From contig JAJDUK010000086.1 in NCBI GenBank assembly GCA_022826665.1, positions 1 through 53,174 of the forward strand: a stretch of DNA of 53,174 nt. Direction: 5' to 3'. The position numbers were made by a program, and so were the translations under genes. The notes below the pieces were generated by a model. It was given only the letters and a program-made list of their open reading frames with translations, had not been told where the DNA came from and ran no database searches. Shown here piece by piece: positions 7,068 through 35,200 of the stretch (positions are counted from its first letter, which is position 1; each line of letters begins with the position of its first letter). This DNA is from Alphaproteobacteria bacterium (GTDB lineage Bacteria > Pseudomonadota > Alphaproteobacteria > UBA828).

Positions 7068-7114
7068 AACTGTCTCCTTCTTTTCCCTACGCGCGCCGCT
7101 ATCCAGCGCGGATT

Positions 7115-7146
7115 GCGGGGTCCACAGCGCTGGCTGCGGACCCCGC
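7115..7146 (-). terminator. Strong hairpin between binding-protein gene and SnoaL pair
   Basis: A perfect nine-base inverted repeat (GCGGGGTCC at 7115-7123 and GGACCCCGC at 7138-7146) with a 14-base loop lies just after the stop of the LivK-like gene. No T-run follows, so it may be an intercistronic mRNA-stabilising or attenuating hairpin, not a full terminator. It would let the binding protein be made in excess over the downstream SnoaL proteins. Confidence 0.55.
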
Positions 7147-7154
7147 CCCGAGTG

Positions 7155-8342: not shown

Positions 8343-8467
8343 CGACGATCTCCCTTTGGTCCGTGGATTGATGTGTCGTGGCGCCACAACGTAGGGCCAG
8401 CGGCCGGGCGCATCAACCGCGCGCCGAACCGTGTCCCGACGCGGCAAAAAGGGGGCAGGGGAGGGGC

Positions 8468-10317
8468 TCAGCGGTCGAGCGTTTCGGCCTTGCCCGGCTC
8501 CTCCCACCACGCATCGAGAACGGTGCCATAGACCGGTATCACATCGGGCCGGCCGAACTTGCTCCAGTAGGCGTAGCGGTCGTCGTTCAGGTGATAGAGG
8601 GGGAGGAGGTAGTGCCCCCACAGAATCGCCCGGTCCATGGCACGGATGGTGTCGACGAAGTCCCCGCGTTCCCGCGCCTGGGTCATGCGGGCGATGAGCT
8701 CGTCGACGACCGGGTCCCTGATCCCCGGATAGTTGCGCGTGCCTTCCTCGTCCGCCGCGGCGACGCCCCAGTAGAACGCCTGTTCGTTCCCCGGCGAGAG
8801 CGACATGCCCCAGCGATAGATGATCATGTCGAAGTCGTAGACATTGCGCCGGTACTGGTACTGGGCCGTGTCCACGGTGCGCACCTTGGCCTCGCCGCCG
8901 AGTCTCTCGAGATTGCGCGCGAAGGCGAGCCCGATCTTCTCGTTGCCGGGGTTCACCAGCAGAATCTCGAACGCGAGCGGAAGGCCATCCGCCGCCCGCC
9001 GGAGCGTCCCGTCCTGCACCTCCCATCCGGCCTTCGCCAGCAGGCGCCTGGCTGTCCCGAGATTCTTGCGCAGGCCGCCCTCCACCTCGGGCGCGTGGTA
9101 GGCGGTATCGAACACCTCGGGCCAGAGCCGATCGCGATGGGGCTCCAGCAGGGCCAGCTCGCCCCCCTCTGGCAGGCCGCGCGAGCCAAGCTCCGAGTTG
9201 TCGAAGATGCTGTTGGTGCGCACGTAGGCGCCCTGCAGCAGTGCCCGGTTCACCCACTCGAAGTCGAAGGCGAGCGAGAGCGCGTAGCGGACCGCGCGAT
9301 CCTCGAACATCGCCCTCCGCGTGTTGTAGACGAGGGCGAACATGCCGGAGGGCCGCCCGTGCGGCAGCTGCTCGATGGTGACCCGGCCGTCTTCCACCGC
9401 CGGGAAGTCATAGCCGGTCGCCCACCGGGTCGCCGAGCGTTCCAGGCGCAAGTCGTACTCGCCCGCGCGGAACGCTTCCATCATCACTTCGTCGTCGCGG
9501 TAATAGTCGTAGCTGATGCGGTCGAAGTTGTGCTGCCCCTGGTTGATCGGCAGGTTCCGCCCCCAGTACTCGGGATCGCGGCGGTAGACGATGCCGCGGC
9601 CGGCATCGACGCTCTCGATCTTGTAGGGGCCGCTGCCGAGCGGCGGCGTCAGCGTCGTTTCCTCGAACGTGACCGACGAATAGTAGGCCTTCGAGATGAT
9701 CGGCATGAGCCCGAGGATCAGCGGCAGCTCGCGGTCCGGCGTCTCGGTGTCGAAGAAGAAGTGCACCGAGCGCGCGTCCGGCCGTTCGATCTTTTGCACC
9801 TTGTTGTAATAGAGCCGGTGGTTGGGGCGGCCCTGCTCCTTCAGCGTCTCCCACGAGAAAATCACGTCGTCGACGGTGATCGGACTGCCGTCGTGGAAGC
9901 GCGCCTCCGGCCGCAGGCGGAACAGGACGGATGAGCGGTCGTCCGGCACCTCCACCGATTCGGCGATCAGCCCGTAGAGTGAAAACGGCTCGTCCCAGGT
10001 GCGCTTGAGCAGGCTCTCGAAGGTAAGGTGCCGCCCCGGCGCCGCCACGCCCTTGATGATGAACGGGTTGAGACTATCGAAGGTGCCCGTGACGGCACGC
10101 CGAAGCTCACCGCCCTTGGGCGCGTTCGGGTTGACATAGTCGAGATGCTGGAAGTCGGGGCCGTACTTCGGCGCCCCATGCATGGCGATTCCGTGGGTGG
10201 GCGCCGCCAGGGCCGGCGCGCTCGCCAATGCCAGCGCGACCAGTGCCGCCGCCGGCAGCAACAATCGAGCCGCCATCCGGCGGCGAGGCCGCCCGTTGGC
10301 GTCCCTGCCCAGCGCCA

Positions 10318-10318
<1 letters not shown>
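8468..10318 (-). CDS. YejA-like family-5 ABC solute-binding protein (orphan)
   Basis: The product is 616 residues from the ATG at 10318, which overlaps the frmA stop by one base. An internal Met at 10276 would give a cleaner signal peptide (MAARLLLPAAALVALALA, cleavage near ALA-AP). The body is the SBP_bac_5 type II fold of the YejA branch: GELRRAVTGTFDSLNPFIIKG near the N-terminus, FRLRPEARFHDGSPITVDDVIFSWETLK, and GSGPYKIESVDAGRGIVYRRDPEYWG. YejA proteins bind peptides or related compounds for an inner-membrane importer. No yejBEF-type genes are in the window, so it is an orphan here. Confidence 0.88.
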
Positions 10319-11427
<1,109 letters not shown>

Positions 11428-11516
11428 CGCTCCCTCCTTGTCGCTGTCGTCAGTTGCGAATCAATTTCAGCCCACTGTCTCACCGGGTGCAGACGCGGGC
11501 AACACCGCACACGACC

Positions 11517-13187
11517 CTAGCGCTGCCGGTTTTCCCAGTCGGGGTGGACCCAGGGCACGTCGTTGGCCGGCGGCAGCGGCTCGCGGCCGAGGATGTGGTC
11601 CGACGCCTTCTCGCCCACCATGATGGAAGGCGCGTTGAGGTTGCCGTTGGTGATGTGCGGGAAGATCGAGCTGTCGGCCACGCGCAGCCCATCCACGCCG
11701 ATAACGCGGCAGGCGGGGTCGACCACCGCATCCGCGTCGTCTTCGGCACCCATACGGCAGGTGCCGCAGGGGTGGTAGGCGCTCTCCACGGCACCTTTCA
11801 CGAATTCGTCGATGTCCTCGTCGCTCTGAACCCTGACGCCGGGCGCGATCTCTTCGCCGGTGTAATCGGCCAGCGCGGGTTGCGAGAGGATCTCCCGTGT
11901 CAGCCTGATGCAAGCTCGGAAGGTTTGCCAGTCCTCCTCGTGGGACATGTAGTTGAAGAGGATCGAGGGCGCCGCCGCGGGCTCCGATGACGTGAGCCGC
12001 ACCCGGCCCCGCGACTTCGAGCGCATCGGCCCGACATGGGTCTGGAAGCCGTGGCCTTCGGCGGCGGCCTTGCCGTCGTAGCGCACCGCGAAGGGCAGGA
12101 AGTGGTACTGGATGTTCGGATACCTCACGCCGGCACGGGAGCGGATGAAGCCGCAGGACTCGAAGTGATTGGTGGCGCCGAGGCCGTCCCTGAACATGAG
12201 CCAGCGCGCGCCGATCAGCGCCTTGGAGAACAGGTTCCAGTGGCGATAGAGCGTGATCGGCTGCCGGCACTTCACTTGCAGGTAGATTTCCAGATGGTCC
12301 TGCAGGTTGGCGCCGACGCCGGGCCGGTCGGCGACGACCTCGATGCCATGCTCCTGCAGGTGCTCCGCCGGGCCGATACCGGAGAGCAGGAGCAGCTTCG
12401 GCGAGTTGATCGACGACGCGGCGAGGATGACCTCTGCGTTGGCGCGCACGCGACGGATCGTGCCGCCAGTCTCGTACTCGACGCCGACCGCGCGCCGGTC
12501 CTCCATCACCACGCGGCGGACGTGGGCCCGCGACCGGAGCGCCAGGTTGCGGCGCTGCAGCGCGGGCTTGAGATAGGCGTTGGCGGCTGACCAGCGGCGG
12601 CCGCGCCACACGGTCATCTCCATCGCCCCGAAACCTTCCTGGCGCTCGCCGTTGTAATCGGCGGTCATGGCGTAGCCGGCCTGCTCACCCGCCTTGACGA
12701 AGCTCCGGTAAAGCGGGTTCTGCATCGGCCCGCGGGTGACGTGGAGCGGGCCGTCGCTGCCGCGCCACCCGGCCTGCCCGCCATGAGAGTGCTCCATGCG
12801 CCGGTAGTAGGGCAGCACGTGGCGGTAGCCCCAGCCCGCCGCGCCCAGCTCTTCCCAGGTGTCGAAGTCGCAGGCGTTGCCGCGCACGTAGACCATGCCG
12901 TTGATGGAGGAGGAGCCGCCGATCACCTTGCCGCGCGGCGTCGCGAGCCGCCGCCCGCCGAGGTGCGGCTCGGGCTCGGTCACGAAGCCCCAGTCGTAGC
13001 GGGGCATGTTCATGGGGTAGGAGAGGGCAGCCGGCATCTGAATAAGCGGGCCGGCGTCGGTCCCGCCGTGCTCCAGCACCAGCACGCGATTGCGCTCGTC
13101 TTCGGAGAGCCGCGCGGCGAGCACACAGCCGGCGGACCCCGATCCCACGATCACATAGTCGAACTCGTCGTCGAAGCGGGCGGTCAT
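11517..13187 (-). CDS. betA: Choline dehydrogenase (GMC flavoenzyme)
   Basis: The start is set at the ATG at 13187 ([20 protein letters not shown]), giving 556 residues, the usual BetA length; upstream residues are not conserved-looking. The FAD dinucleotide motif GSGSAG is near residue 15, and the GMC signature [18 protein letters not shown] follows at about 85. Strong BetA stretches include [22 protein letters not shown] and [11 protein letters not shown], and the C-terminal CGTCRMG region has the active-site histidine upstream (AYHPCGTC). It oxidises choline to betaine aldehyde and can carry on to betaine. No betB is in the window. It lies 22 bases after betI. Confidence 0.93.
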
Positions 13188-13209
13188 CGAGGTCACGCAG
13201 TGCCCGCGT

Positions 13210-13791
13210 TCAGCGAGCCTCGAGCTGACTGTCGATGTGCGCCTCCATGATCGCCATCGCGCTCTCGCCGTGGGGCTCCGTGTCACCGAGAACGCGGCGG
13301 AGCCACAGCCCGTCGATCATGGCCGCGGTGGATTCGGCGGCGATTTCCGCCGTCTCCCGCGTCGGCAACTGCCGGTATTCGTGACGCAGGTTGCTGATCA
13401 GCCGGCGTTGGTAGATGAGCAGCAAGCGGCGCACCTCGGGCTCCGTAAGGGCCTGCACGTAGAAGGTGAGCCAGGCGGAGATCACCTCGGGCTGGAGCTG
13501 CTCGTCGCAGAAGCTGCCGTCCATGATCGCGGAAAGCCGCTCGCGCGGGGTCTTGGCTTCGCGCAGGCGCTCCCTGATGCCGGCGCCGAACTCGATCAGG
13601 AGGTGGCGCATGGTGGCGATGATGAGCGCGCCCTTGGAGCCGAAGTAGTGATGGACCAGCCCCTGGGAGAGGCCGGCCTCGCGCGCGACATCGCCGGTGG
13701 TCAGGTCGACGAACCCCCGGTCGTGAATGCTCCTGATCGCGGCCTCGACGAAGGCGCGCCGGCGCACGGGCGCCATTCCGGTCTTTGGCAT
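13210..13791 (-). CDS. betI: TetR-family transcriptional repressor BetI
   Basis: The 193-residue regulator has an N-terminal TetR HTH (about residues 10-58) with [24 protein letters not shown], closely matching BetI, followed by the MRHLL segment typical of that subfamily. The C-terminal ligand domain contains [33 protein letters not shown], again BetI-like. BetI represses choline-uptake and oxidation genes and is relieved by choline. It sits upstream of betA on the same strand and divergent from choX, with a palindrome between the two. The gene map therefore predicts control of both directions. Confidence 0.92.
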
Positions 13792-13823
13792 CGGCTACTC
13801 CTGTACTCGGGACCATTATATTG

Positions 13824-13841
13824 GTTGGTTGACCAATCAAC
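13824..13841. promoter_or_regulatory. Candidate BetI operator
   Basis: The 18-base sequence GTTGGTTGACCAATCAAC is an imperfect palindrome with 14 of 18 positions symmetric. It lies in the 99-base gap between the betI start (13791) and the choX start (13891). Its AT-rich TTGG/CCAA arms resemble BetI-type sites. It could overlap promoters for both directions. The position and symmetry are seen directly; binding by BetI is inferred. Confidence 0.65.
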
Positions 13842-13890
13842 AAAAGATTGCGAGAGTCGCCTGAACGAAGCGAGCGTGAGGGAGGGTTCA

Positions 13891-14841
13891 ATGCACATTC
13901 GGATGACATCTGCAATCGCCGCCGTAGCCATGGGCGCCGCGGCCATGGCGGGCAATGCCTATGCCGACGACGCCGCCACCTGCAGCGAGGTGGAATTCTC
14001 GGATGTCGGCTGGAGCTGCATCACGGCGACCACCGCCGTGGCAACCACCGTCCTCGAAGGGCTCGGCTATGAGCCGAAGGCGACCGTGCTTTCGGTGCCG
14101 GTGACCTTCGCCAGCCTTTCCAACGGCGACATCGACGCCTTTCTCGGGCTCTGGCTGCCGACCCAGCAGAGCATGATCGACCCCTACTTCAACGACGGCA
14201 CCGTCGAGAACGTGGGCGTCAATCTCGAGGGCGCCAAGTACACCCTCGCCGTGCCCACCTATGTTTTCGACGCTGGGGTCAAGAGCTTCGGCGACATCGC
14301 CGCCCATGCCGACAAGTTCGACAGCAAGTTCTACGGCATCGAGCCCGGCAACGACGGCAACATGATCATTCAGGGCATGATCGACGACAACGCCTTCGGC
14401 CTCAGCGGCTTCGAGGTCGTGGAATCGAGCGAGCAAGGCATGCTCTCCCAGGTCGAGGCCGCGGTCCGGAGCGACGAGTGGATCGTCTTCCTCGGTTGGG
14501 AGCCGCATCCCATGAACCGCCGCTTCGACATGAGCTATCTCGATGGCGGCGACGACTACTTCGGCGCCAACTTCGGCGGCGCCACGGTCTACACGCTGGC
14601 CCACGCCGGCTATACCGAGGCCTGCCCCAACGTGGGCGCGCTGCTGAAGAACCTGCGCTTCTCGTTGGCGCTTGAGAACGAGATGATGGGCTATATGCTC
14701 GACGACGGGATGGACCCGCAGGCGGCCGCCCGGAAGCTCGTCGAGATGCACCCCGAGCTGGTCGACGAGTGGCTCACGGGCGTGACCACGCTTGACGGCC
14801 AGGATGGCGCGGCTGCCGTGAAGGCCCATCTCGGCATGTAG
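13891..14841 (+). CDS. choX: Choline ABC transporter, periplasmic binding protein
   Basis: The ATG at 13891 follows a GGGAGGG site and gives a signal peptide ending near AYA-DD; the much longer upstream frame is antisense to betI. The 316-residue protein is an OpuAC-type (type II) binding protein. Aromatic residues typical of the choline cage are visible in GWSC, GLWLPTQ, PTYVFD and GWEPHPMN. A pair of cysteines lies near the mature N-terminus. It captures choline in the periplasm for ChoWV. The gene starts the plus-strand operon and is followed by a strong hairpin before choW. Confidence 0.92.
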   Translation: MHIRMTSAIAAVAMGAAAMAGNAYADDAATCSEVEFSDVGWSCITATTAVATTVLEGLGYEPKATVLSVPVTFASLSNGDIDAFLGLWLPTQQSMIDPYFNDGTVENVGVNLEGAKYTLAVPTYVFDAGVKSFGDIAAHADKFDSKFYGIEPGNDGNMIIQGMIDDNAFGLSGFEVVESSEQGMLSQVEAAVRSDEWIVFLGWEPHPMNRRFDMSYLDGGDDYFGANFGGATVYTLAHAGYTEACPNVGALLKNLRFSLALENEMMGYMLDDGMDPQAAARKLVEMHPELVDEWLTGVTTLDGQDGAAAVKAHLGM

Positions 14842-14880
14842 CGACCGATTACGCGGGCGGTCCAGCGGGCCGAGTCTGCG

Positions 14881-14910
14881 GGCGGTCGGCGCTGAGAGGC
14901 GCCGGCCGCC
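14881..14910 (+). terminator. Intercistronic hairpin between choX and choW
   Basis: Arms GGCGGTCGGCGC (14881-14892) and GCGCCGGCCGCC (14899-14910) pair over 12 positions, with one G-T wobble and a six-base loop. There is no T-run, and the downstream genes are plainly part of the same operon. It most likely attenuates or protects the choX message so that binding protein exceeds permease. It parallels the hairpin after the LivK-like gene at 7115-7146. Confidence 0.55.
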
Positions 14911-14932
14911 TGTCCGGTCGGGGAGGGGCGTC

Positions 14933-15808
14933 ATGGGCACCGACGATCTCGGAGTCCTTACCGAGAAAATTCCGATCGGCAAGTGGGTCGCCAACGCAAT
15001 CGAGTTCATCAAGGACAACTTCTTCCACGAGCTTCGAGCGTTCTCCGGCGGCCTGGACTGGGTGCTCGAGGCCTTCGCCTACTTCCTCGGTCTGATCCCG
15101 CCGCCGGTCTTTGTCTTCCTCGTGGCGGCTGTCGCCTTTTATCTGCATCGCAGCATCGTGCTCGTGATCGGCGTGGTCTTAGGGCTGCTGCTGGTCCTCA
15201 ACATCGGCTACTGGGACGAGATGCTGTTCACGGTGGTGCTGGTCTCGGCATCCACCGTCGTCTGCATCCTGGTGGGCGTGCCCATCGGCATCGCCGCAGC
15301 GCACCGGCCCTGGCTCTACCGGATGCTGCGGCCGATCCTCGACCTGATGCAGACCATCCCGCCTTTTGTCTACCTGATCCCGACGCTCACCTTCTTCGGG
15401 CTGGGCCTGGTGCCAGGGTTGATCTCCACCGTGATCTTCGCCATCCCGGCGCCCATTCGCCTCACCCATCTCGGCATCTCCAGCGCGCCCCGGCCGCTCC
15501 TGGAGGCGGGCCGCGCCTTCGGCGCCAGCGACACGCAGCTTCTACTCAAGGTCGAGCTTCCTCACGCGATGCCGAGCATCATGCAGGGGGTTACCCAGTG
15601 CATCATGCTCTCGCTCTCGATGGTGGTGATCGCCGCGCTGGTGGGGGCCGACGGGCTCGGCGTGCCGGTGGTACGAGCGCTTACCACGGTCAACGTCGCG
15701 CAGGGCTTCGAGGCCGGATTGGCCATCGTGGTCGTTGCCATCGTGCTCGATCGCATCCTGAAGCAGGTCGAGAGGCGCAAGGGCAAGCGCGGCTCCGCCG
15801 CACGCTGA
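14933..15808 (+). CDS. choW: Choline ABC transporter, permease
   Basis: The 291-residue protein is a ProW/OpuAB-type permease with about six transmembrane helices. An N-terminal segment (IPIGKWVANAIEFIKDNF) precedes the first helix. The conserved loop near residues 185-220 (EAGRAFGASDTQLLLKVELPHAMPSI) is the EAA motif that contacts the ATPase. GGGAGGGG precedes the ATG. Its TGA overlaps the choV ATG (TGATG), indicating translational coupling. It forms the membrane channel for choline with ChoX and ChoV. Confidence 0.92.
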   Translation: MGTDDLGVLTEKIPIGKWVANAIEFIKDNFFHELRAFSGGLDWVLEAFAYFLGLIPPPVFVFLVAAVAFYLHRSIVLVIGVVLGLLLVLNIGYWDEMLFTVVLVSASTVVCILVGVPIGIAAAHRPWLYRMLRPILDLMQTIPPFVYLIPTLTFFGLGLVPGLISTVIFAIPAPIRLTHLGISSAPRPLLEAGRAFGASDTQLLLKVELPHAMPSIMQGVTQCIMLSLSMVVIAALVGADGLGVPVVRALTTVNVAQGFEAGLAIVVVAIVLDRILKQVERRKGKRGSAAR

Positions 15809-17043
15809 TGGCCGTCATCACCTTCGATCGGGTGGACGTGATCTTTGGCCGGCGGGTCAAGGAGGCGATTGCCCTGCTCGACGCCGGCGCCGACAAGGAC
15901 CGCATCTTCGAGGAGACCGGCCAGGTGGTCGGCGTGCAGGACGCTTCGCTCCAGGTCGAGGCTGGCGAGATCTTCGTGCTCATGGGGCTCTCGGGCTCCG
16001 GCAAGTCGACCCTGCTCCGCTGCGTCAACGGTCTCAACCAGGCGACGCGCGGCCGGGTGCTGATCGACGACGGCGGCACGGAGATCGACGTCACCGACTG
16101 CGACCCCAAGCTCATGCGCAGGCTGCGGATGGACCGCGTCTCCATGGTCTTCCAGCAGTTCGCGCTGATGCCGTGGCGCACCATCGGCGCCAACGTCGCC
16201 TTCGGGCTGGAGGTGCGCGGCGTGCCCAAGGCCGAGCGCCGCAAGCGGGTGGTTGAGGTGCTCGAACAGGTGGGGCTCGGCTCGTGGCTCGACCATTATC
16301 CGCACGAGCTCTCCGGCGGCATGCAGCAGCGCGTGGGCCTCGCCCGCGCCTTCGCCACCGATGCCGAAATCCTGCTGATGGACGAGCCTTTCTCCGCCCT
16401 CGATCCGCTGATCCGCGAGCGCCTGCAGGACGAGCTGCTGGCGTTGCAGGAGACGCTGCGCCGCACCATCCTGTTCGTGAGCCACGACCTCGACGAGGCG
16501 CTCAAGATCGGCACGCGCATCGCCATCATGGAGGGCGGACGCATCATCCAGGTGGGGCCGCCGGAGCAGATCGTCACCGAGCCGGCGGACGAGTACGTGC
16601 GCCAGTTCGTCGCCAACGTGAACCCGCTCAACGTCCTGCGCGGCGTCACGTTGATGCGCCCGCTGGCCGAACTCCGCAGCGAGGACGACGTTCACCTGCT
16701 TGACGAGGCATCGGCCATGTTTTGCCGGCTGGACGCGGACGGGCGCCCCGAGGCGTTCAGCCTCGAAGGCACGCGGGCTGTGCTCGTGCCGTACCGGGAA
16801 GGCCTCGATCTTGCCTCGCTCGGCAACGGTACGATCGTCGCCGGCAGCCCCGCGACGACCATGCGCACCGCGCTGGAGGTGCGCCACGAGACCGGGCGGG
16901 CGATGCCGCTGCTCGACGAGGGTGGGAGGTTGGTCGGCGTGATTGGCGCCGCCGAGCTTCTTGCTGCGCTGGTGCACCGGGGCGCCGGCCCGCCGCCCGA
17001 GGAGGCGGACGCGCCCGAGGCCGCGCCGCCGCCCGAACAATGA
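15808..17043 (+). CDS. choV: Choline ABC transporter, ATP-binding protein
   Basis: The 411-residue ATPase starts MAVITFDRVDVIFG, followed by the ALLDAGADKDRIFEETGQVVGV insert typical of ChoV/ProV. Walker A is GLSGSGKS (about 61-68), the Q-loop is FQQFALMPW, the signature is LSGGMQQR, Walker B is ILLMDEPFSALD and the switch His lies in FVSHDLDEA. A C-terminal CBS-like region follows (about 285-395) and may sense ionic strength or ligand. The final Pro/Glu-rich tail is low complexity. The start overlaps the choW stop. Confidence 0.92.
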   Translation: MAVITFDRVDVIFGRRVKEAIALLDAGADKDRIFEETGQVVGVQDASLQVEAGEIFVLMGLSGSGKSTLLRCVNGLNQATRGRVLIDDGGTEIDVTDCDPKLMRRLRMDRVSMVFQQFALMPWRTIGANVAFGLEVRGVPKAERRKRVVEVLEQVGLGSWLDHYPHELSGGMQQRVGLARAFATDAEILLMDEPFSALDPLIRERLQDELLALQETLRRTILFVSHDLDEALKIGTRIAIMEGGRIIQVGPPEQIVTEPADEYVRQFVANVNPLNVLRGVTLMRPLAELRSEDDVHLLDEASAMFCRLDADGRPEAFSLEGTRAVLVPYREGLDLASLGNGTIVAGSPATTMRTALEVRHETGRAMPLLDEGGRLVGVIGAAELLAALVHRGAGPPPEEADAPEAAPPPEQ

Positions 17044-17054
17044 AGGGGACCACC

Positions 17055-17867
17055 ATGGCTCACAGGGTCCGCAGACTCGCACTGTTCCTGCTCGTGCTCG
17101 TCGCCGCGCCGGCGGCGGCCTCGGCGCACTACGTCGATCTGAACCAGGCGCTGCACAGCAAGAACACGCTGACCGTGGGCATCGCGCTCACCGGCCAGCC
17201 CTTCGCTTACAAGAGGGACGGTGTGGTGCGAGGCTTCGAGGTCGAGATGGCGCAGGCGGTCGCCGAGGCCCACGGGCTCGCGCTGGAGGTCGTCCGCCTG
17301 CCGCGCGCGCAGTTATGGGCAGCGCTCGCCGCAGGCGAGGTGGACGTCGCCAACACCCTCGCCATGGAGAGGGAGCCGGCGAACATCAAGACCGTGCCCT
17401 ATCTGGTGGTCGGCGATCACTTGATGGTGCTCCGGGGCAACCCGTTTCGCATCCGCGCGGCGGACGACCTGAGCGGCCGGGTCACGTCGGTCACCTCGGG
17501 CTCGACCGGGGAGCAGTTCGCCCACGCGCTCAACCGCGAGTTCGAGGCCGAGGGCCGCGCGCCCATGCACGTCCACTCCTTCCCCGACGAGCGCTGGACC
17601 CACTTCCCCGTCTCCATGGGCCACGCCCAGGGCTACTTCATCCAGACCGTGAGCGCGGTGGCGGTGAACGCCGACCCCCACGCGCGCAACCGCCTGGTCG
17701 ATGGCGTGTTCCGCCCGGTGCGGGAGGTCGGCTTCGCCATCCGCGCGGACAACGACAAGCTGCACCACGCGGTCGAGCACGCCGTCGCCGCCATGGTCGC
17801 CACCGGCAAGTACCGCCGGCTGCGGGAGTCCTACGACCTGCCGGCCGAGCTTTCGCCCTACAGATAG
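17055..17867 (+). CDS. Family-3 solute-binding protein appended to the choline operon
   Basis: The ATG at 17055 follows AAGGGG; an ATG at 17040 overlapping the choV stop is an alternative. The 270-residue product has a signal peptide (cleavage near ASA-HY) and an SBP_bac_3 fold: TLTVGIALTGQPFAYKRDGVVRGFEVEMAQAVAE, an AALAAGEVDVANTLAMEREPA segment, and SVTSGSTGEQFAHAL. Such proteins normally bind polar amino acids. It directly follows choV, so it is probably co-expressed and may give the choline permease a second ligand or act alone. No matching amino-acid permease is nearby. Confidence 0.85.
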   Translation: MAHRVRRLALFLLVLVAAPAAASAHYVDLNQALHSKNTLTVGIALTGQPFAYKRDGVVRGFEVEMAQAVAEAHGLALEVVRLPRAQLWAALAAGEVDVANTLAMEREPANIKTVPYLVVGDHLMVLRGNPFRIRAADDLSGRVTSVTSGSTGEQFAHALNREFEAEGRAPMHVHSFPDERWTHFPVSMGHAQGYFIQTVSAVAVNADPHARNRLVDGVFRPVREVGFAIRADNDKLHHAVEHAVAAMVATGKYRRLRESYDLPAELSPYR

Positions 17868-17884
17868 GGCTGCGCGGCACAATT

Positions 17885-18005: not shown

Positions 18006-20231
18006 TCAGACTCTTCTTGACCGCGAGTCGAGCGCGTCGCTCTTCGACAGCGCTTCTCGCCCAAATCGCTCGACCGCCTCCAGGGTCTCGCGCACGTCGT
18101 CCCAGGTCGTGGTGTGGTTGATGATGCACATCCTGAGCGTGAACGTCCCGTGCAGCAGCATTGACGACATGAACGCAGGATTATCCCAGAACATGCGGGC
18201 GAGGACCGTCCTGTTGACCTTGTCCAGTACCGCCTCGTCGAGTTCATCGTCAGACGGATTGACCCGGAAGCACACGATCCCCAGCGTCGGCGTACTTGTG
18301 GCTTCCAGGACTGGACTCTCACGGATGTACTCTTCCGCCATCTCGGCCAGCTGCATCCCCGTCTCGACAGCGCGCCGGAACGCCGCCATGCCGAAGGTCT
18401 GGACCGACATCCAGACCTTGAGCGCACGAACCGAGCGGCTCAGCTGCAGGCCGAGGTTCGAGAAGTTGGGATGGTTTGCTCCCCAGACCGTGTCCTGAAG
18501 GATGTCGGGCCGGACCCCGAAGGCGTTCGTGAGCGTATTCTCGTCCTTAACCAGCAGGCAGCCCGCTTCGTAGGGCTGGAAGAGCCACTTGTGCGCATCC
18601 AGCCCGACCGAATCGGCACGTTCGACGCCGCGGAGAAGCCGCTTGCCGCGCTCGGTCACCACCGCGAAGCCGCCGTAGGCGGCGTCGGCATGCAGCCAGA
18701 GGCCTTCCGCCGCGCAGAAGTCGGCCATCTCCTCAAGTGGGTCGATGGCGCCCGTGCCCGCCGTGCCGGCGTTGGCGGCGACCGCGATGGGGCTAAGGCC
18801 GGCGTCGCGGTCTGCGGCCACGGCGCTGGCGAGGGCATCCATGTCCATGCGGAAGTCCGCGTCGCTCGGAATCATGCGAATGCGCTCGCGGCGGACGCCC
18901 ACGATCATCGCCGCGCGGGAGAGTGCGCTGTGGCTCTGGTCGCTCATGTAGACCGTGGCGCGATCGGGGTGGCCCGCCGCCTCGCGCGCCGCGACGAAGG
19001 CGTCGACGCTCGCCGCCGAGCCGCCGCTGGTGAAGAGCCCGCCCGCGCCCTCCGGATAGCCGAGCCAACGCCTGAACCAGTCGATGACGACCAACTCCAG
19101 CTGGCTGGGGCCGCTCGCGACCAGCCAGGTGCATTGATTGATGTGGTAGCCGGCGGCCATGAAATCGGCCACCACGCCGGGCCAGGTGGGCGATGACGGG
19201 ATGAAGCCGAAGCAGCGGGGGTGGTCGATTCGCGCCGTGAGCGGAAGAACGTCGCGCGCCGCCCGCTCGATCACCTCTGCGGCCGGCTTCCCGTCCTCAG
19301 GTGGGTCCTCGAGAAGCTGCTCTTCGAGCACCTGGCGGAACTCGCCCTCCCAGGCATTCTCTCCCGGCAGGCTCTCGATCCGATCTACCACGAGCTCAAG
19401 CGCCTTCTGCCCGAGGTCGATCATCTGCTCACGCGACATCTGCAGATCGCCGGCGGCTTGGGACTGCGGTTTCACTTCGGGTCCACAATCCTCAGGCGAG
19501 GGGGGATTTTCCGGCGCGACCAGGAGACGACCGGTTACGCCGTGGCGATCGATCAGGCGGGCGACGAGACCACTCGCCTTGGCCTCCTCGACGAAGTCGG
19601 CCAGGAAGGCGGCGCCCGCACGGTTGGTCGTCGCTGTGCCCACCGCCTGCCGGACGGCCGTGAAGCGCCCGTCGAGAAGCCGAGCGCCGGGGAGCTTGTC
19701 GGCGTCCGCGATCAAGCCGGGCCTGAGGCCCGCGAGCGCGTCGAGCTTCTCGTTCACGAAGAGCTCGAAGGCGGCCGCAAGACCCTTCGCGCGTACCAGC
19801 TCGGCGTGCTTGAGATGGCGCGTCAGGTACAGGTCGTAGGCGCTCCTGTCAGATACCGCGATGCGAATGCCGGGGCGGTCGACGTCGTCGATCGCAGCGA
19901 GGGAGCTGCTCTCGGGAACCATGTAAGTCGCCTCGATCTCGACGTATGGCGGCGAGAACGCGATCGTCTCCGCGCGCGCAGGCTCCGCGGCGATGAGGCC
20001 GATGTCCCAGAGATCCCGTCCCGCCGCATCGGTGAGCTCGCCGGGCGAGGCGAAGGTGACGTAGGAGACCGCGACACCCAGGCGATCTGCGATCGCGCGC
20101 GCCATGTCGGGTGCGACGCCGATCGGGTCGCCCGACGATGCCCTGCCCGTCACCAGCAGGAAGTTGGACAGGTTGATCCCCGCGCGCAGGGTGCCGCTCG
20201 GTGCAAGCTCGGAGAGGATGTCTTGGTCCAT
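18006..20231 (-). CDS. Fusion: family-3 solute-binding domain + PLP-dependent decarboxylase
   Basis: The 741-residue protein has two parts. Residues 1-240 are a complete SBP_bac_3-like domain (LRAGINLSNFLLV, GVAPDMARAIADRLGV, DLWDIGLIAAEPARAETIAFSPPY) with no signal peptide, so it is cytosolic. A Pro/Gln/Ser-rich linker (240-264) leads to a group II PLP decarboxylase (265-741) with SGGSAAS at 402-408, H434 for ring stacking, D516 in HADAAYGG and Schiff-base K548 in DAHKW. The enzyme half alone matches the truncated copy at 153-560, which starts exactly at M265. The binding domain may sense a small ligand and control the enzyme. The amino-acid substrate is not determined; aromatic or acidic amino acids are possible for this class. 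Confidence 0.85.
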   Translation of the reverse strand: MDQDILSELAPSGTLRAGINLSNFLLVTGRASSGDPIGVAPDMARAIADRLGVAVSYVTFASPGELTDAAGRDLWDIGLIAAEPARAETIAFSPPYVEIEATYMVPESSSLAAIDDVDRPGIRIAVSDRSAYDLYLTRHLKHAELVRAKGLAAAFELFVNEKLDALAGLRPGLIADADKLPGARLLDGRFTAVRQAVGTATTNRAGAAFLADFVEEAKASGLVARLIDRHGVTGRLLVAPENPPSPEDCGPEVKPQSQAAGDLQMSREQMIDLGQKALELVVDRIESLPGENAWEGEFRQVLEEQLLEDPPEDGKPAAEVIERAARDVLPLTARIDHPRCFGFIPSSPTWPGVVADFMAAGYHINQCTWLVASGPSQLELVVIDWFRRWLGYPEGAGGLFTSGGSAASVDAFVAAREAAGHPDRATVYMSDQSHSALSRAAMIVGVRRERIRMIPSDADFRMDMDALASAVAADRDAGLSPIAVAANAGTAGTGAIDPLEEMADFCAAEGLWLHADAAYGGFAVVTERGKRLLRGVERADSVGLDAHKWLFQPYEAGCLLVKDENTLTNAFGVRPDILQDTVWGANHPNFSNLGLQLSRSVRALKVWMSVQTFGMAAFRRAVETGMQLAEMAEEYIRESPVLEATSTPTLGIVCFRVNPSDDELDEAVLDKVNRTVLARMFWDNPAFMSSMLLHGTFTLRMCIINHTTTWDDVRETLEAVERFGREALSKSDALDSRSRRV

Positions 20232-20334: not shown

Positions 20335-22161
<1,827 letters not shown>

Positions 22162-23545: not shown

Positions 23546-23938
23546 TTACACCGCGGACTCCGGCTCAACCAGCGACTCCGCCTTGGCGCGGTCGTCGGCG
23601 GATATGGCGACCGTGGCGTAGCCGTTTCGGCGGTCCAGAAAGTGCAGGCTCCGAATATTCACGCCGGCCTGCTTGAACCTCTCCGCCAGTCTGGCCAACG
23701 CGCCTGGTTCGTCGCGCAGTCTCAGGACGAGCGATTCGTCGGATACGGTCTTGAAGCCCGCCTCCGTCAGCGCGCGCAGAGCGCCGTCGTGGTCGTCCGC
23801 GGTGAGCGTTATCGCGCCCTTCTCCCCCAGCGCCTCTGCGCTGATGGTCTCGATATTGATGTTGCGCTCGGCCAAGGCTCCGGCGATGTCGGCGATGACG
23901 CCCGCCTCGTTGTTGGCGATGACGACGATCCTGGTCAT
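23546..23938 (-). CDS. Tandem ACT-domain protein coupled to histidine decarboxylase
   Basis: The start is the ATG at 23938, overlapping the hdc stop as ATGA; the upstream extension is a shadow of hdc. The 130-residue protein consists of two ACT domains: MTRIVVIANNEAGVIADIAGALAERNINIETISA (1-65) and SLVLRLRDEPGALARLAERFKQAGVNIRSLHFL (about 70-125). ACT pairs bind amino acids at their interface and act as allosteric sensors. The strict coupling suggests that it responds to histidine or histamine and modulates the decarboxylase or its regulation. There is no catalytic domain. The partner role is inference. Confidence 0.85.
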   Translation of the reverse strand: MTRIVVIANNEAGVIADIAGALAERNINIETISAEALGEKGAITLTADDHDGALRALTEAGFKTVSDESLVLRLRDEPGALARLAERFKQAGVNIRSLHFLDRRNGYATVAISADDRAKAESLVEPESAV

Positions 23939-25068
23939 GGGACTGTCCCCGTTTCGTCTCTTGGTGCCGTTGCTCCACGCATGCAGTCGTCCACCACGGC
24001 ATCGATGGTCTCGCGGGTTACGTGTGGCATCGCGATGAGGTGCGCGATGTTCTCGTAGGGCGCGAGCTGCCACTTGCGCACGACGTCCGCTGGCGGCCTT
24101 GGGAACACGACGGTGACCGAGTTCCTGTTGCGCCATGCCGGGATGCCGCCGTCGTTGAAGCGCGTGACCGCGTATTCCGCCGTCTCAAGGCATCCGTTCA
24201 CGATGCGCCTGAAGCCGTCCAGCCCCTTCTGCTCGAACGCGTACCACATCATCAGCGGCGTCAGCGCGTTGCGTGAGCCGGTGAGCGTGGTGTCCAGCAC
24301 GCCCACGTATTCGACGGCGCGCGCGATGCGTGAGACGTATTCGCGCCGGGTCAGCGCGACGCCGCAGGGCAGTGGCGAGCCGACCATCTTGTGCCCGCTG
24401 ATCGCAACGCTGTCGAAGCCGGCGTCGAACCCGTAGGGCTGCGGATCGTCCACGAACGGCAATATCATGCCGCTGAGCGCTGCGTCCGCGTGTATGTGCG
24501 ACTTGGTCACCGCGAGGTCGTTCAGGATGTCGCGGATCTTGCTCACGTCGTCGATCGCGCCCTTCATCGTCGTGCCGATGTTCGCCATCACGATTGCGGG
24601 CACGTCCCGGTTGACGCGAATCGTCTCGCGGAGGTCGTCGTAATCGATCTCCCCGTTGTCCTGGCTCCTTATCATGATGTTGCGCACCTTCAGCACGCTC
24701 ATGATCTTGACCACGCTGTAGTGGGTGTCCTGGGAGAAATAGACCACGCCGTCCGGGAAGAGTTCCCGCCCGAGGTAGAGGCCGTACATGTTGCCTTCAG
24801 TGCCGCCCGAGGTGACGTAGCCCCACACTTGTTCGCGCGAAATGTGCATCAAATCGGCGAAGATGCCGATGACCTCGCGCTCGATCTCGTGTGTGTTGCT
24901 TTGGAAGTTGCTGTCGTGGAAGGGATCGCCCACGTTGTTGAGAGCGTACTGCATGAAGGGCAGCAGCGCCGTGTAGTCGAAATCCAGATTGCAGGGATAG
25001 CCAACAGAATGCCGGCTCAACTCGTCGAAATCTCGAAGGAGAGAATCGAGTCTTTCCAGGTTATCCAC
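23935..25068 (-). CDS. hdc: PLP-dependent histidine decarboxylase
   Basis: The 377-residue enzyme matches the PLP-type histidine decarboxylases of Gram-negative bacteria such as Morganella throughout. It has GYPCNLDFDYT, WGYVTSGGTEGNMYGLYLGRE, the HADAALSGMILPFVDD segment with D195, and SGHKMVGSPLPCG with Schiff-base K227; H116 (DTHYS) stacks on PLP. It converts histidine to histamine and CO2 in the cytosol. The GTG start has a GGGGG run six bases upstream. No histidine/histamine antiporter or siderophore synthetase is adjacent. The ACT protein is its only coupled partner. Confidence 0.93.
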   Translation of the reverse strand: MDNLERLDSLLRDFDELSRHSVGYPCNLDFDYTALLPFMQYALNNVGDPFHDSNFQSNTHEIEREVIGIFADLMHISREQVWGYVTSGGTEGNMYGLYLGRELFPDGVVYFSQDTHYSVVKIMSVLKVRNIMIRSQDNGEIDYDDLRETIRVNRDVPAIVMANIGTTMKGAIDDVSKIRDILNDLAVTKSHIHADAALSGMILPFVDDPQPYGFDAGFDSVAISGHKMVGSPLPCGVALTRREYVSRIARAVEYVGVLDTTLTGSRNALTPLMMWYAFEQKGLDGFRRIVNGCLETAEYAVTRFNDGGIPAWRNRNSVTVVFPRPPADVVRKWQLAPYENIAHLIAMPHVTRETIDAVVDDCMRGATAPRDETGTVP

Positions 25069-25253: not shown

Positions 25254-27641
25254 TCAAATCTTGCCGAGTGCGCGTAGCACCTTCTGGGGCGTGAAGGGCA
25301 TGTCGGTGAGCCGCGCGGCGAAGGGCGCGAGCGCGTCGTTGAGCGCGTTCATCACCGCCGCCGGCGCGCCGCAGGTGCCGGCCTCGCCCACCCCCTTGGC
25401 GCCGAGATCGGATTCGAACGTGGGCGAGACCACATGGCCGCAACGCATGTCGGGCAGCTCCGCTGCCATGGGCACGAGATAGTCCGCCATGTTGGCGTTC
25501 AGCATCTGCCCGTCGCTGTCGTAGACGCACTGCTCCCAGAGCGCGCCGCCCAGCCCCTGCACGATGCCGCCCCGGATCTGCTCGTCCACGAGCTGCGGGT
25601 TGATGACGGTGCCGCAGTCCTCGATGCACCAGTGATCCAGGAGCGAGATGAAGCCGGTCTCGACATCGACCTCCAGATACGACGCCTGCGCGCCGTTGGT
25701 GAAGGCGAAGGGGTATTGGCGCGGGACGTAGTGACGGGTCGCGACCAGCTCGGACTGGAAGCCGTCCGGTAGGGTATCGGGCCGGTAGTAGCAGACGCGC
25801 CCGACCTCATCGAGGCCGATGCGCTCCGCGCCGCTCGCCCTCTCCACCACGACCCCGCCCCGGATGTCCAGGTTCTCCGCCTCCTCCTGAAGCATGACCG
25901 CCGCCGCGCGCAGGATCTGCTGCCTGAGCGCACGGCCCGCCTGGGCCACCGCCTCTCCGCCGATGCCGGCCGCGCGCGAGGCCCATGTGCCGCCGCCATA
26001 GGGCGTGTGCTCCGTGTCGCCGGTGACGATCTTGAGCCGTTCGGGAGGAACGCCGACGGCCGTCGCCGCGACCTGCGAGATCACCGCCTCCATGCCCTGG
26101 CCCTGCTCGGTCGCGCCGGTCGCGACGAACACGTTGCCCCTGGCGTCGAGGCGCATGGTCGCTCCGTCCTGCGCGGAGATGCGCGCGCCGCCCACGCCGT
26201 AGAACATCGCAGACGGGTTCGTGACCTCGATGAAGCTCGCAAGGCCAATGCCGCGATAGACCCCCTCGGTGCGAAGGGCGTCGCGCTCCGCCTTCAGGGC
26301 GTCGTAGTCCATCGCGTCCAGGAGCTTCGCGAGGCTCTCCTGGTGCGAGAGGTTCTCGAACGGGAGCCCCTGCGCCGACTTGCAGGGATAGGAGTCGTCC
26401 GCGCGCAGGTTCCTGCGGCGAATCTCGGCCGGGTCCATGCCGGTCGCACGCGCCGCCGCATCCACCAGCCCCTCGGTCACCGCGCATTTGACCGGATGGC
26501 CGACCGCGCGGTACTGGCACATCATGTTCTTGTTCTGGAAGACGACGGTCGCCTGCGCCCGGTAGTGGTCGAAGGCATAGGGGCCGCCCGTCAGGTTCAC
26601 GATCTGGTTCGACTCGATGCCGCTCGTGCGCGGATACATGGAATAGGGACCGATGCCGCTGAGCGCGTCGATCTCGAACGCGAGAATGGTGCCGTCGTCC
26701 TTGACGGCGACCTTCCCCTGAACCCGCTGGTCGCGCGCATGGATGTCGGACAGGAAGCTCTCCAGCCTGTCCGCCACGAACTTGACCGGCCGCTTGAGCA
26801 GGAGCGAGAGCCCGACGGTCGCGAGCTCGTCCGCATAGGTGTGGACCTTGATCCCGAACGAGCCGCCGACATCGCGCGCGATCACGCGGACCCGATGCTC
26901 GTCCAGGCGGAAATGGGTCGCGAGGATGTTCTGGACCATGTGCGGGCACTGGTTGTTGTGCCACACGGTGAGCTGCCCTTCTCCGGGGTTCCAGTCCGCG
27001 AGGATGGCGCGAGGCTCGACGCACACCCCGGTATGTCGGGCAAAGACGTAAGTCTCCTCGACGATATGGTCGGCCTCCGCATAGGCTGCCTCGATATCGC
27101 CGAAATCCGCATTGCGCCGCCAGGCGAGGTTGTCGCCGAGGCTCTCGTGAATGACGGTCGTGGCGGGATCGAGCGCGGTCTCGGCGTCGGTGACGGCCGG
27201 CAGCACCTCCCAGTCGATCTTCACGAGCTCCACCGCATCCTCGGCCCTGGCGCGGCTCTCGGCGACCACCGCGACCACCGCCTCGCCCTGCCAGGTCGCC
27301 GTTTCCAGCGGCAGCGCATATTGCGGCGCGGACTTGAGACCCTGGAGATGCGACAGCACGCCGACCCAGGGGTCGTGGATCTCCGCGAGCTCGCGTCCGG
27401 TCACCACCGCGATTACCCCAGGCGCCGCCCTGGCCGCCTCCGCGTCGATGGACCCGATCCGGGCATGGGCGTGGGGCGAGCGCACGAAGGCCGCGTGCCC
27501 CGTCCGCCCGCCGGTCTCGATATCGTCGACGAAGGCGCCGCGCCCTTCCGCGAGGCGGGGCGCGTTGGGGCGCGGAACGGACCGGCCGATATAGGAGTTC
27601 GGGCGGTCGAGGAGCCAGCGGTCCGCGATGAGATCGGTCAT
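25254..27641 (-). CDS. Molybdenum hydroxylase large subunit (CoxL/XDH family)
   Basis: The ATG at 27641 overlaps the small-subunit stop (ATGA), giving 795 residues. The Ald_Xan_dh_C domain (FVDDIETGGRTGHAAFVRSPHAHARI) is at the N-terminus and is followed by the molybdopterin-cytosine-binding domain. The latter has GGSFGIKVH, the substrate-loop sequence QYRAVGHPVKCAVTEG, and GVGEAG with the catalytic Glu near the C-terminus. The CODH-specific CSFR loop is absent, so it is not a CO dehydrogenase. With CoxM and CoxS it should hydroxylate an aldehyde or N-heterocycle. The upstream importer may supply the substrate. Confidence 0.9.
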   Translation of the reverse strand: MTDLIADRWLLDRPNSYIGRSVPRPNAPRLAEGRGAFVDDIETGGRTGHAAFVRSPHAHARIGSIDAEAARAAPGVIAVVTGRELAEIHDPWVGVLSHLQGLKSAPQYALPLETATWQGEAVVAVVAESRARAEDAVELVKIDWEVLPAVTDAETALDPATTVIHESLGDNLAWRRNADFGDIEAAYAEADHIVEETYVFARHTGVCVEPRAILADWNPGEGQLTVWHNNQCPHMVQNILATHFRLDEHRVRVIARDVGGSFGIKVHTYADELATVGLSLLLKRPVKFVADRLESFLSDIHARDQRVQGKVAVKDDGTILAFEIDALSGIGPYSMYPRTSGIESNQIVNLTGGPYAFDHYRAQATVVFQNKNMMCQYRAVGHPVKCAVTEGLVDAAARATGMDPAEIRRRNLRADDSYPCKSAQGLPFENLSHQESLAKLLDAMDYDALKAERDALRTEGVYRGIGLASFIEVTNPSAMFYGVGGARISAQDGATMRLDARGNVFVATGATEQGQGMEAVISQVAATAVGVPPERLKIVTGDTEHTPYGGGTWASRAAGIGGEAVAQAGRALRQQILRAAAVMLQEEAENLDIRGGVVVERASGAERIGLDEVGRVCYYRPDTLPDGFQSELVATRHYVPRQYPFAFTNGAQASYLEVDVETGFISLLDHWCIEDCGTVINPQLVDEQIRGGIVQGLGGALWEQCVYDSDGQMLNANMADYLVPMAAELPDMRCGHVVSPTFESDLGAKGVGEAGTCGAPAAVMNALNDALAPFAARLTDMPFTPQKVLRALGKI

Positions 27642-28120
27642 GACGGGCCTCCTTGGCGCTGGCGGGCCATCTCGAACGCATCCACGATCGCCTCGTAGCC
27701 CGTACACCGGCAGTAGTTTCCAGAGATGAATTCGCGGATCTCCTGCCGGCTCGCGGCGGGATTGCGCTCCCTCAGCTCGGCCAGGGTCAGCAGCATGCCG
27801 GGGGTGCAGTAGCCGCACTGGAGCGCATTGCGCTCGACGAATGCCTCCTGGAGGTCGCGGATCTCTCCGGTGTCGCTCAGCCCCTCGATGGTCCAGACAT
27901 CGGCGCCGTCCGCCTGCGCGGCCAGCATCAGGCAGCCGCGCACGATGCGCCCGTCCACCCGCACGGTGCAGGCGCCGCACACGCCGTGCTCGCAGCCGAC
28001 ATGGCTGCCGGTGAGGCCGAGCTCCTCGCGCAGGAAGTCCACCAGGTTCATCCGCGCCTCGATGCGGCGGGTGGCCCGTTCGCCGTTGACCCGCAGGCCG
28101 ATTTCGACAGTGCTGTCCAT
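27638..28120 (-). CDS. Molybdenum hydroxylase 2Fe-2S subunit (CoxS-like)
   Basis: The 160-residue subunit has an N-terminal plant-type ferredoxin domain, GCEHGVCGACTVRVDGRIVRGC (about residues 42-63). Its C-terminal helical [2Fe-2S] domain has CGYCTPGML near 97-105 and GNYCRCTGYEAIV near 134-146. All eight cluster cysteines are present. It relays electrons from the molybdenum site in the large subunit to FAD in the medium subunit. It lies between coxM (12-base gap) and coxL (ATGA overlap). Confidence 0.93.
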   Translation of the reverse strand: MDSTVEIGLRVNGERATRRIEARMNLVDFLREELGLTGSHVGCEHGVCGACTVRVDGRIVRGCLMLAAQADGADVWTIEGLSDTGEIRDLQEAFVERNALQCGYCTPGMLLTLAELRERNPAASRQEIREFISGNYCRCTGYEAIVDAFEMARQRQGGPS

Positions 28121-28132
28121 CGCTCCCCTCCC

Positions 28133-28987
28133 TCAGGCCGCCAGCGGAGCCAGTACACGCCTGGCGAGGACTCCGGCGAGATGCCGGCGCATCGGCGCGT
28201 CCGCATTCAGGTCTTCGGACGGGTCGAGCTCCTCCTTGAGCGCATCGGCGATCCGGTCGCCAAGAGCGTCCGACCAGCTCTCGCCGTCGAGCAGGGCTGC
28301 GCTCCGCACCGCGCAGACGGGCCGCTCGCCCACCCCGAAGAAGACGAGGCGGCCCTGGCCGAACCTGCCGTCCTGCACCTCGACATGGGCGGCGAGTCCG
28401 ATCATCGCGTAGTCGCCGTGCCGCCGCGCCAGCTCCATGAAGCCCGACTTCCAGCCCGCTCCGATGCCCGGCACCTCGACTGCGGTCAGCACCTCGCCCG
28501 GCTCGAGCGCGGTCTCGTAGAGGCCCCGGAAGAACGCGTCCGCGTCAACGGTTCGAGTGCCGCCCTTGCCCGCAATCGTCATGCGCGCACCGAGTGCGAC
28601 CGCGCAGGCCGGAAGCTCGGCCGCCGGGTCAGCGAGCGCGATGGAACCGCCGAACGTGCCGCAATTGCGCACCGCCGGATGGGCGATATGCGGCATGGCG
28701 CTGGCGATGAGCGGCGCGCGGGAGGCGACGAGGTCCGAGGCCTCCACCTCCGCATGGCGGGTCATGGCTCCGATCCGAAGCCCAGCGTCGGTTTCCTCGA
28801 TGCCCGCAAGGTCCGGCACGCGGCCGATATCGACCAGAATCTCGGGGGCAGAGAGCCGCATGTTGAGGGTGGCCATCAGGCTCTGGCCGCCGGCGAGGAT
28901 TCTCGAGTCCTCCCCGTGCTCGTCCAGCGCGGCGATGGCGTCTTCGAGGCTTGCCGGCCTGACATAGGCGAATGGGGCAGGTTTCAT
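28133..28987 (-). CDS. Molybdenum hydroxylase FAD subunit (CoxM-like)
   Basis: The 284-residue protein has the FAD_binding_5 fold with the flavin motifs AGGQSLMATLNMRLSAPEILVDI (about 32-54) and RNCGTFGGSIALADPAAELPA near residue 107. A CO_deh_flav_C domain follows. The start overlaps the stop of the deacetylase remnant as ATGA. Together with CoxS and CoxL it completes a three-subunit xanthine-dehydrogenase-like enzyme. Length and motifs are normal. Confidence 0.92.
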   Translation of the reverse strand: MKPAPFAYVRPASLEDAIAALDEHGEDSRILAGGQSLMATLNMRLSAPEILVDIGRVPDLAGIEETDAGLRIGAMTRHAEVEASDLVASRAPLIASAMPHIAHPAVRNCGTFGGSIALADPAAELPACAVALGARMTIAGKGGTRTVDADAFFRGLYETALEPGEVLTAVEVPGIGAGWKSGFMELARRHGDYAMIGLAAHVEVQDGRFGQGRLVFFGVGERPVCAVRSAALLDGESWSDALGDRIADALKEELDPSEDLNADAPMRRHLAGVLARRVLAPLAA

Positions 28988-29238: not shown

Positions 29239-30168
29239 CTACGCGCCCCTGAGCCGCGGATCGAGCGCGTCGCGCAGGCCGTCGCCGATGTAGTTGACGC
29301 TCAGCACCGTGAGCGAAATCGCCAGTCCGGGCCAGAGCACCCGCTCCGGCGTGACCGAGATGAAGTTCGCACCGTCGAAGAGCAGCCGTCCCCAGGTCGG
29401 GAAGTCCGGCGGAAAACCGAGTCCTAAGAACGAGAGCGCTGATTCCGTGATGATTGCGTTGGCGATGCCGAGCGTCGCCGAGACCATGATCGGGCTCAGC
29501 ACGTTGGGCAGGATGTGGCGGGTGATGATGCGCCGCCTGCGCGTGCCGATGCTGCGCGCCGCGGTCACGAACTCGCGCTCCCGGAGCGCCAGCACGTCGC
29601 CCCGCACGATGCGCGCGGTCTGCATCCAGCTGGTGATGCCGATGATGAACACCACCAGCAGGAAGATCCCGGTCTCCGGGCCGAAGGCGGCGCGCAGGCT
29701 GTCGCGGAACAGCATGATGACGACCAGCAGCAGCGGCAGCAGCGGCAACGCCAGGAACATGTCGGTGAGCCGCATCAGGAGGCCGTCGATCTGCCTGAAG
29801 TAGCCCGCGAGCACGCCAACCAGGGTGCCGAGCACCAGCGCGATCATCATCGCGGTGAAGCCCACGGCCAGCGAGATGCGCCCGCCCGCCAGCACCTGCG
29901 CCAGCGTGTCGCGGCCGAGGTTGTCGGTCCCCATCGGATGCTTGAGCGAGGGTCCCTCGTTCTTCGCCAGGATGTCGAGATAGTGCGGGTCCACGGTGTG
30001 GATCAGCGGGCCGAGGGCGACCGCGAGCGAGATCGCGATGAATACGCCTGCGCCCACCAGCGCGCCCGTGTGGTTGCGGAAGGCGAGCCACACGTCCATC
30101 CAGAGCGAGCGGTGTCGCTGCAACCCGCGCGAGGGGGCGGTGAGGTCGGAAGATTGCGCGGCCGGCAT
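29239..30168 (-). CDS. Peptide/nickel-type ABC permease (DppC/OppC-like)
   Basis: The 309-residue permease has a cytoplasmic N-terminus, then RNHTGALVGAGVFIAISLAVALGPLI as helix 1, an extracytoplasmic loop with HPMGTDNLGRDTLAQVL (hallmark of DppC), and five more helices. The EAA loop is REREFVTAARSIGTRRRRIITRHILPNVL. It starts three bases after the OppB-like gene. It pairs with that protein to form the inner-membrane channel, driven by the two ATPases at 33211-35200. Confidence 0.9.
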   Translation of the reverse strand: MPAAQSSDLTAPSRGLQRHRSLWMDVWLAFRNHTGALVGAGVFIAISLAVALGPLIHTVDPHYLDILAKNEGPSLKHPMGTDNLGRDTLAQVLAGGRISLAVGFTAMMIALVLGTLVGVLAGYFRQIDGLLMRLTDMFLALPLLPLLLVVIMLFRDSLRAAFGPETGIFLLVVFIIGITSWMQTARIVRGDVLALREREFVTAARSIGTRRRRIITRHILPNVLSPIMVSATLGIANAIITESALSFLGLGFPPDFPTWGRLLFDGANFISVTPERVLWPGLAISLTVLSVNYIGDGLRDALDPRLRGA

Positions 30169-30171
30169 CGC

Positions 30172-31185
<1,014 letters not shown>

Positions 31186-31220
31186 TGCCCGCGCCACAAG
31201 GGCAGGTGGGCGGGCAAAAG

Positions 31221-31335
31221 CACCCCCTCCTCACCCCGGCCCTCTCCTCCCCGAGGGGGAGGAGAGGGAGCTAAGCCGGTGCCGCCTGCGTCCCCCCTCC
31301 GCCCTTCAGGGGGGAGGGGGTCAGGGGGAGGTGGG
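31221..31335 (+). repeat. GC-rich palindromic intergenic repeat, copy B
   Basis: Two stem-loops are visible. One is centred on CTCCTCCCCGAGGGGGAGGAG (roughly 31243-31264), and the other on CCCCCCTCCGCC paired with GGGGGGAGGGGG. A spacer carrying GCCTGCG lies between them. The layout and much of the sequence match copies A and C. Unlike copy A, it lies within a same-strand gene array, between the binding-protein gene and the OppB-like gene, where it could reduce read-through. Confidence 0.75.
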
Positions 31336-31433
31336 TGTCGTTCGGCTCCCACCGCCCGCCAGCGCGGCGCGCGTATTCCGCATTGCCAGCGGGACCACGC
31401 CGCGCAAACCATGACCCCAGTGAGGAAGCCGGA

Positions 31434-33146: not shown

Positions 33147-33210
33147 GTCGCGGGCCTCCAGTTGGGAGGGTGTGGGGCGCGCCTGAGCGCATACCCCGCA
33201 TCATCTGCCA

Positions 33211-34194: not shown

Positions 34195-35200
<1,006 letters not shown>

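Follow-up and report, generated by a model that had tools for sequence, protein, structure and literature searches.

Background

The locus studied here raises the question of whether an open frame that joins a solute-binding protein (SBP) domain of the SBP_bac_3 type to a group II PLP decarboxylase encodes an established sensor-enzyme or a recent genetic accident. It lies in the genome, designated G000, of an uncultured alphaproteobacterium, in a stretch of 53,174 nucleotides which was analysed as a whole and is called the window below. Literature searches for an SBP-decarboxylase fusion, as well as for cytosolic signal-less SBPs, found nothing relevant. Our analysis reveals that the fusion belongs to a single genome and is not a conserved architecture. 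It is probably a real and young fusion, confined to one lineage, of two known kinds of gene, and it looks like a genetic accident more than an established sensor-enzyme. What makes it useful is that the donor gene, the acceptor gene and the breakpoint, together with the source of most of the tether, can be read off from a comparison with sister species, which gives a snapshot of the birth of a two-domain protein.

Results and discussion

A single open frame with two complete domains

As the initial annotation had stated, a signal-less SBP_bac_3 domain is joined in frame to a complete group II decarboxylase, and the 741 codons contain no stop (Table 1). In Pfam, residues 32-230 match SBP_bac_3 (PF00497) with 42.6 bits against a cut-off of 26.4, and residues 307-657 match Pyridoxal_deC (PF00282) with 218.3 bits against a cut-off of 27; with the frame open and both domains scoring well, an artefact of domain order or frameshift was ruled out. 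The SBP half begins directly at ELAPSGTLRAGIN, without a signal peptide. In the decarboxylase half the PLP residues are intact, as had also been claimed: the PLP lysine K548 (in HKW), the PLP-ring Asp D516 and the conserved His H434 are all invariant in the alignment.

Table 1. Features of the fused frame and its surroundings in the window
Feature	Coordinates	Strand	Evidence
Fused ORF, 741 aa	18006..20231	-	Single open frame, ATG start; two Pfam domains
SBP_bac_3 half, residues 1-240, signal-less; orthologue is a standalone gene of ~240 aa	19512..20231	-	80/80 best homologous loci end here; AlphaFold2 pLDDT 95.4
Tether, residues 241-264: ~5 new residues and native decarboxylase N-terminal tail	19440..19511	-	Aligns to the 5' ends of the decarboxylase genes in G014 and G015; pLDDT <50 at residues 243-265
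Group II PLP decarboxylase half, residues 265-741	18009..19439	-	Pyridoxal_deC 218 bits; standalone same-genus orthologues, 77-86% identity
Fusion junction, GCGCCG/GAAAAT vs native GCGCCG-TAA in G015 and G018	19503..19513	-	DNA alignment; junction sequence once in genome
9.7-kb block (SBP-TypA-AlkZ-ACT-HDC-XDH) between decarboxylase and oligopeptide permease, absent there in G018 (contig C319)	19509..29245		Synteny BLAST; right edge is the permease stop codon
OppC/DppC-type permease, decarboxylase neighbour in G018	29239..30168	-	Pfam, synteny
TypA/BipA, upstream neighbour of SBP here and in G015	20335..22161	-	TIGR01394, 855 bits; synteny

The two genes are separate in the other genomes examined

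With the SBP half we scanned about 85,000 prokaryotic species genomes (GTDB) and took the best 80 loci. All 80 are standalone genes, with 235-247 codons between the aligned start and the stop, and the fusion is found in none of them. A class-wide search covered 385 alphaproteobacterial genomes, with scoring of the top two candidates in each; within this scope, residues 1-741 are covered in one match only in G000 itself, the SBP alone is found in 30 other genomes, and the fusion occurs in no genome besides G000. Where both genes are listed for a genome in this search, they occupy separate loci, as in G096, where 112 kb lie between them. Among plasmid records, none covers 80% of the fused-ORF query. 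Two long decarboxylase frames from other genomes (L160 and L161) were considered as N-terminal SBP fusions and rejected: each is a standalone gene, and what precedes it reads as GC-rich frame outside the gene.

The closest comparison comes from the same genus, in which six genomes (G014, G015, G016, G018, G019 and G020) have the decarboxylase as a standalone gene. In G015 and G018 the SBP gene is present as well, at 94% amino-acid identity; it ends with ...GRLLVAP-TAA, a CitE-like gene comes next, and the decarboxylase (84% amino-acid identity) is located on another contig. An SBP orthologue was not detected in the other four. Because the adjacency of SBP and CitE is common to G015 and G018, we infer that the separate state is most simply the ancestral one. 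The initial annotation had proposed a sensor-enzyme architecture and had named beforehand, as one finding that would speak against it, homologues that are always separate genes; this is what is found in every other genome examined, and the proposal is not supported. An evolved allosteric sensor is unlikely because the homologues are always separate.

The junction lies at a probable rearrangement breakpoint

DNA alignment with G015 and G018 places the junction at about position 19509 of the window. The tether, on the 3' side of the junction, has the sequence ENPPS-PEDCGPEVKPQSQAAGDLQ, and from PEDCGPE onward it can be aligned to the tail that natively forms the decarboxylase N-terminus (MPEDCGPEAAPDAQVAGDLC in G014, LPNDCGPKIDAQAPADGDLQ in G015), so that only about five residues are new. 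The Pro/Gln-rich linker of the initial annotation does exist, as the 24-aa tether ENPPSPEDCGPEVKPQSQAAGDLQ, yet it is only mildly rich in these residues and consists mostly of the decarboxylase's own tail.

The gene order shows where the window and G018 differ. Contig C319 of G018 matches, in order, window positions 6015-17870, the decarboxylase at 18038-19460 and window positions 29246-34911, and only about 200 bp separate decarboxylase and permease in G018; hence the window carries the extra 9.7-kb block exactly between these two genes. On the other side of the decarboxylase, a choline-transporter block is found both in G018 and in the window. G015 has the SBP-TypA-AlkZ part of the extra block in one uninterrupted piece, with a DNA identity of about 90%.

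We consider it likely that these patterns reflect a lineage-specific gene fusion by genome rearrangement, which would give one chain with independently folding domains on a flexible tether and needs no evolved coupling between them. A block with a standalone signal-less SBP gene, TypA and further genes would have come to sit immediately 5' of a standalone group II decarboxylase gene; judging by the comparison with relatives, the breakpoint would have taken out the SBP stop codon together with the 5' leader of the decarboxylase and left both genes in frame.

The junction is known from one metagenome-assembled draft genome (106 contigs, 4% contamination), and each of the two genes has its own separate place in the relatives. 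All this would also fit an assembly chimera, in which the SBP-TypA and decarboxylase blocks were misjoined and the genes are as separate in the organism as they are in its relatives. However, the genome contains the junction sequence a single time, and the site showed no shared repeat by which a misjoin could have come about; the two genes adjacent in G018 flank the block on one and the same contig, so that two false joins at one locus would be needed. Moreover, CitE, the native downstream neighbour of SBP, is located not at a contig end but inside an unbroken 142-kb contig, beside a peptide-deformylase-like gene, and the identity to relatives is alike on both sides of the junction (about 85-94% in DNA). 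The presence of both flanks on a single contig favours a real rearrangement over misassembly, and a chimera is in our judgement unlikely.

Even with a truly fused frame, the decarboxylase might be translated chiefly on its own from an internal start codon, for example the ATG at 19439 (MSREQM), and function as in the relatives. This ATG is in frame and opens the conserved N-terminal part of the decarboxylase, and the tether contains an in-frame GTG still further upstream; but no convincing ribosome-binding site was seen by eye upstream of the ATG at 19439 and the native upstream leader has been replaced, which leaves internal initiation as the main route quite unlikely.

Several neighbouring genes may be mentioned in their own right. 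The gene at 16722-17867 (+), which follows directly on a ChoXWV-like choline ABC transporter and is transcribed towards the fused gene, encodes an SBP_bac_3 protein that apparently has a signal peptide; the same order is kept beside the standalone decarboxylase in G018. A PLP-type histidine decarboxylase at 23935-25068 (-), which adjoins an ACT-domain ORF, scores 493.6 bits against an NCBIfam equivalog cut-off of 305, and given this gene the source genome may be able to make histamine. Two xanthine-dehydrogenase/CO-dehydrogenase-like subunits (MoCo and FAD) are encoded at 25254-28987 (-).

Predicted structure and selection

That the SBP part has a binding-protein fold, as first suggested, is borne out by AlphaFold2, which confidently predicts the half alone as a two-lobed type II SBP (pTM 0.90; pLDDT in Table 1). 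The closest solved folds are amino-acid SBPs and relatives of cyclohexadienyl dehydratase, and amino-acid SBPs are matched with Z 21-23 over 212-235 residues at 2.7-3.6 Å rmsd. For the full fusion, both halves are mostly above pLDDT 90 and the tether below 50, with a pTM of 0.61 and no confident domain arrangement; the independent folding of the halves is thus a prediction, and this pTM is still compatible with a specific domain interface.

Under a lineage-specific fusion, the product would most likely be a single cytosolic polypeptide, its SBP and decarboxylase parts folding independently on either side of the flexible tether. For the decarboxylase half, unaltered PLP chemistry is probable, presumably in a homodimer whose two subunits would each carry a pendant SBP domain; the SBP half would be expected to retain whatever ligand-binding role its standalone relatives have. 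Evolved regulatory coupling is not required by the data.

A working allosteric enzyme, in which ligand closure of the cytosolic SBP domain would change the decarboxylase activity, draws on the two-lobed fold, which is predicted to be intact, on the presence of every PLP residue, and on an SBP family whose members are signal-less and hence probably cytosolic. Against it, the fusion is absent from every relative examined, the junction is situated at a rearrangement breakpoint, the tether derives from the decarboxylase's own tail and is predicted to be disordered, and there is no time depth over which selection for coupling could show. Beyond the fusion itself, nothing supports the allosteric-sensor reading, and we regard such an enzyme as extremely improbable. 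Very unlikely, too, is a functional fusion that has just been born, with the cytosolic SBP domain altering the decarboxylase activity or its ligand's supply; if true, it would be a natural example of an SBP-regulated enzyme starting from a rearrangement. A word of caution follows for annotation in general, namely that an eye-catching combination of domains seen in a single draft genome does not have to work as one unit.

Compared with sister species, dN/dS is 0.13-0.15 for the SBP half and 0.13-0.19 for the decarboxylase half, which indicates purifying selection on both, in estimates that span the whole branch since divergence and not the time since fusion. Of the decarboxylase codon changes seen in the window alone, 26 are synonymous and 8 non-synonymous. 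Such purifying selection shows intact genes and does not date the fusion.

A signal-less SBP_bac_3 family

The SBP half and the 80 best homologous loci (L038-L117) form a signal-less SBP_bac_3 family of about 240 aa across Rhodospirillales, Reyranella, Roseomonas and Burkholderiales. The standalone members, which are uncharacterised, are 58-94% identical to the window over the whole SBP half; they share with it the start, the end and the absence of a signal peptide, and none among these best 80 loci is C-terminally fused. The lack of a signal peptide is family-wide, with an in-frame stop at most 17 codons upstream in 59 of the 80 loci. The general statement that binding-protein folds normally work in the periplasm was accordingly too strong, the window's family being signal-less throughout; the effector domains of the LysR and LacI families are likewise binding-protein folds in the cytosol. 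The position of the usual amino-group-binding Asp appears to be replaced in the family (LAGLRP motif).

The SBP half has neither the export signal nor the partner ABC permease that mark the family 3 solute-binding proteins. Across the family's loci no neighbour conserved beyond Reyranella-type genomes was found, and an attempt to derive the SBP function from gene neighbourhood was dropped on this account. Both by sequence and by Foldseek, the SBP half matches best to cyclohexadienyl dehydratase and its ancestral reconstructions (5jos, 5t0w, 3kbr). In this enzyme Glu173 is the catalytic general acid (PMC7683729); the corresponding position is Gly in the window and Lys in the profile consensus. 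Because this Glu is not conserved in the signal-less family, dehydratase activity of the SBP half is unlikely, and its identification as a cyclohexadienyl dehydratase was rejected. Exported fusions of chorismate mutase and cyclohexadienyl dehydratase (PMC10520331; 8cq3, 8cq4) are likewise a rare natural combination of an SBP-type domain with an enzyme, but they differ from the window in being exported, in occurring in nine species, in having both halves catalytic in one pathway and in containing no decarboxylase. The signal-less SBP_bac_3 family is itself a conserved and uncharacterised finding, and its presence in dozens of alphaproteobacterial and burkholderial genomes makes it the point worth pursuing.

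Relatives and function of the decarboxylase half

Standalone group II decarboxylases in the six genomes of the same genus and in G096, G305 and G382 are 64-86% identical to the decarboxylase half and have the same active-site residues; the closest ones also share its N-terminal tail. Unlike the fused ORF, they have no N-terminal SBP domain. At the catalytic-loop position, where animal DOPA decarboxylase has a Tyr (Y332 in pig DDC), the window has Phe590, and Phe is likewise found in the orthologues, so that the loop Tyr of the DDC type is lacking. The best solved relative, with 275 bits, is PDB 4obu, the tryptophan decarboxylase of Ruminococcus gnavus; it is unfused and has Thr in place of the loop Phe, and substrate identity is not transferable at this distance. 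With L-2,4-diaminobutyrate decarboxylase (NF052646) the decarboxylase half scores 214.6 bits, below the equivalog cut-off of 900, and no NCBIfam equivalog cut-off is reached by the fused ORF.

In plant and animal enzymes a change of the loop Tyr to Phe favours aldehyde formation (PMC11308512). An assignment as aldehyde synthase was not adopted for the window, given that the bacterial decarboxylases 4obu and 5o5c are also without the Tyr (Thr or Leu there). Phe alone does not show aldehyde-synthase activity, and it is not diagnostic because the R. gnavus enzyme has Thr at this position.

Besides the fused gene, no intact copy of this decarboxylase turned up in the genome. The one other closely related copy, located at 161-573 (-) and with 82% amino-acid identity to the fused one, comprises the 5' part only and is 3'-truncated after about 140 residues; it breaks off near the contig end, beside a duplicated GGGGGTCAATTTT motif (100-112 and 134-146) that resembles an IS21-type end.
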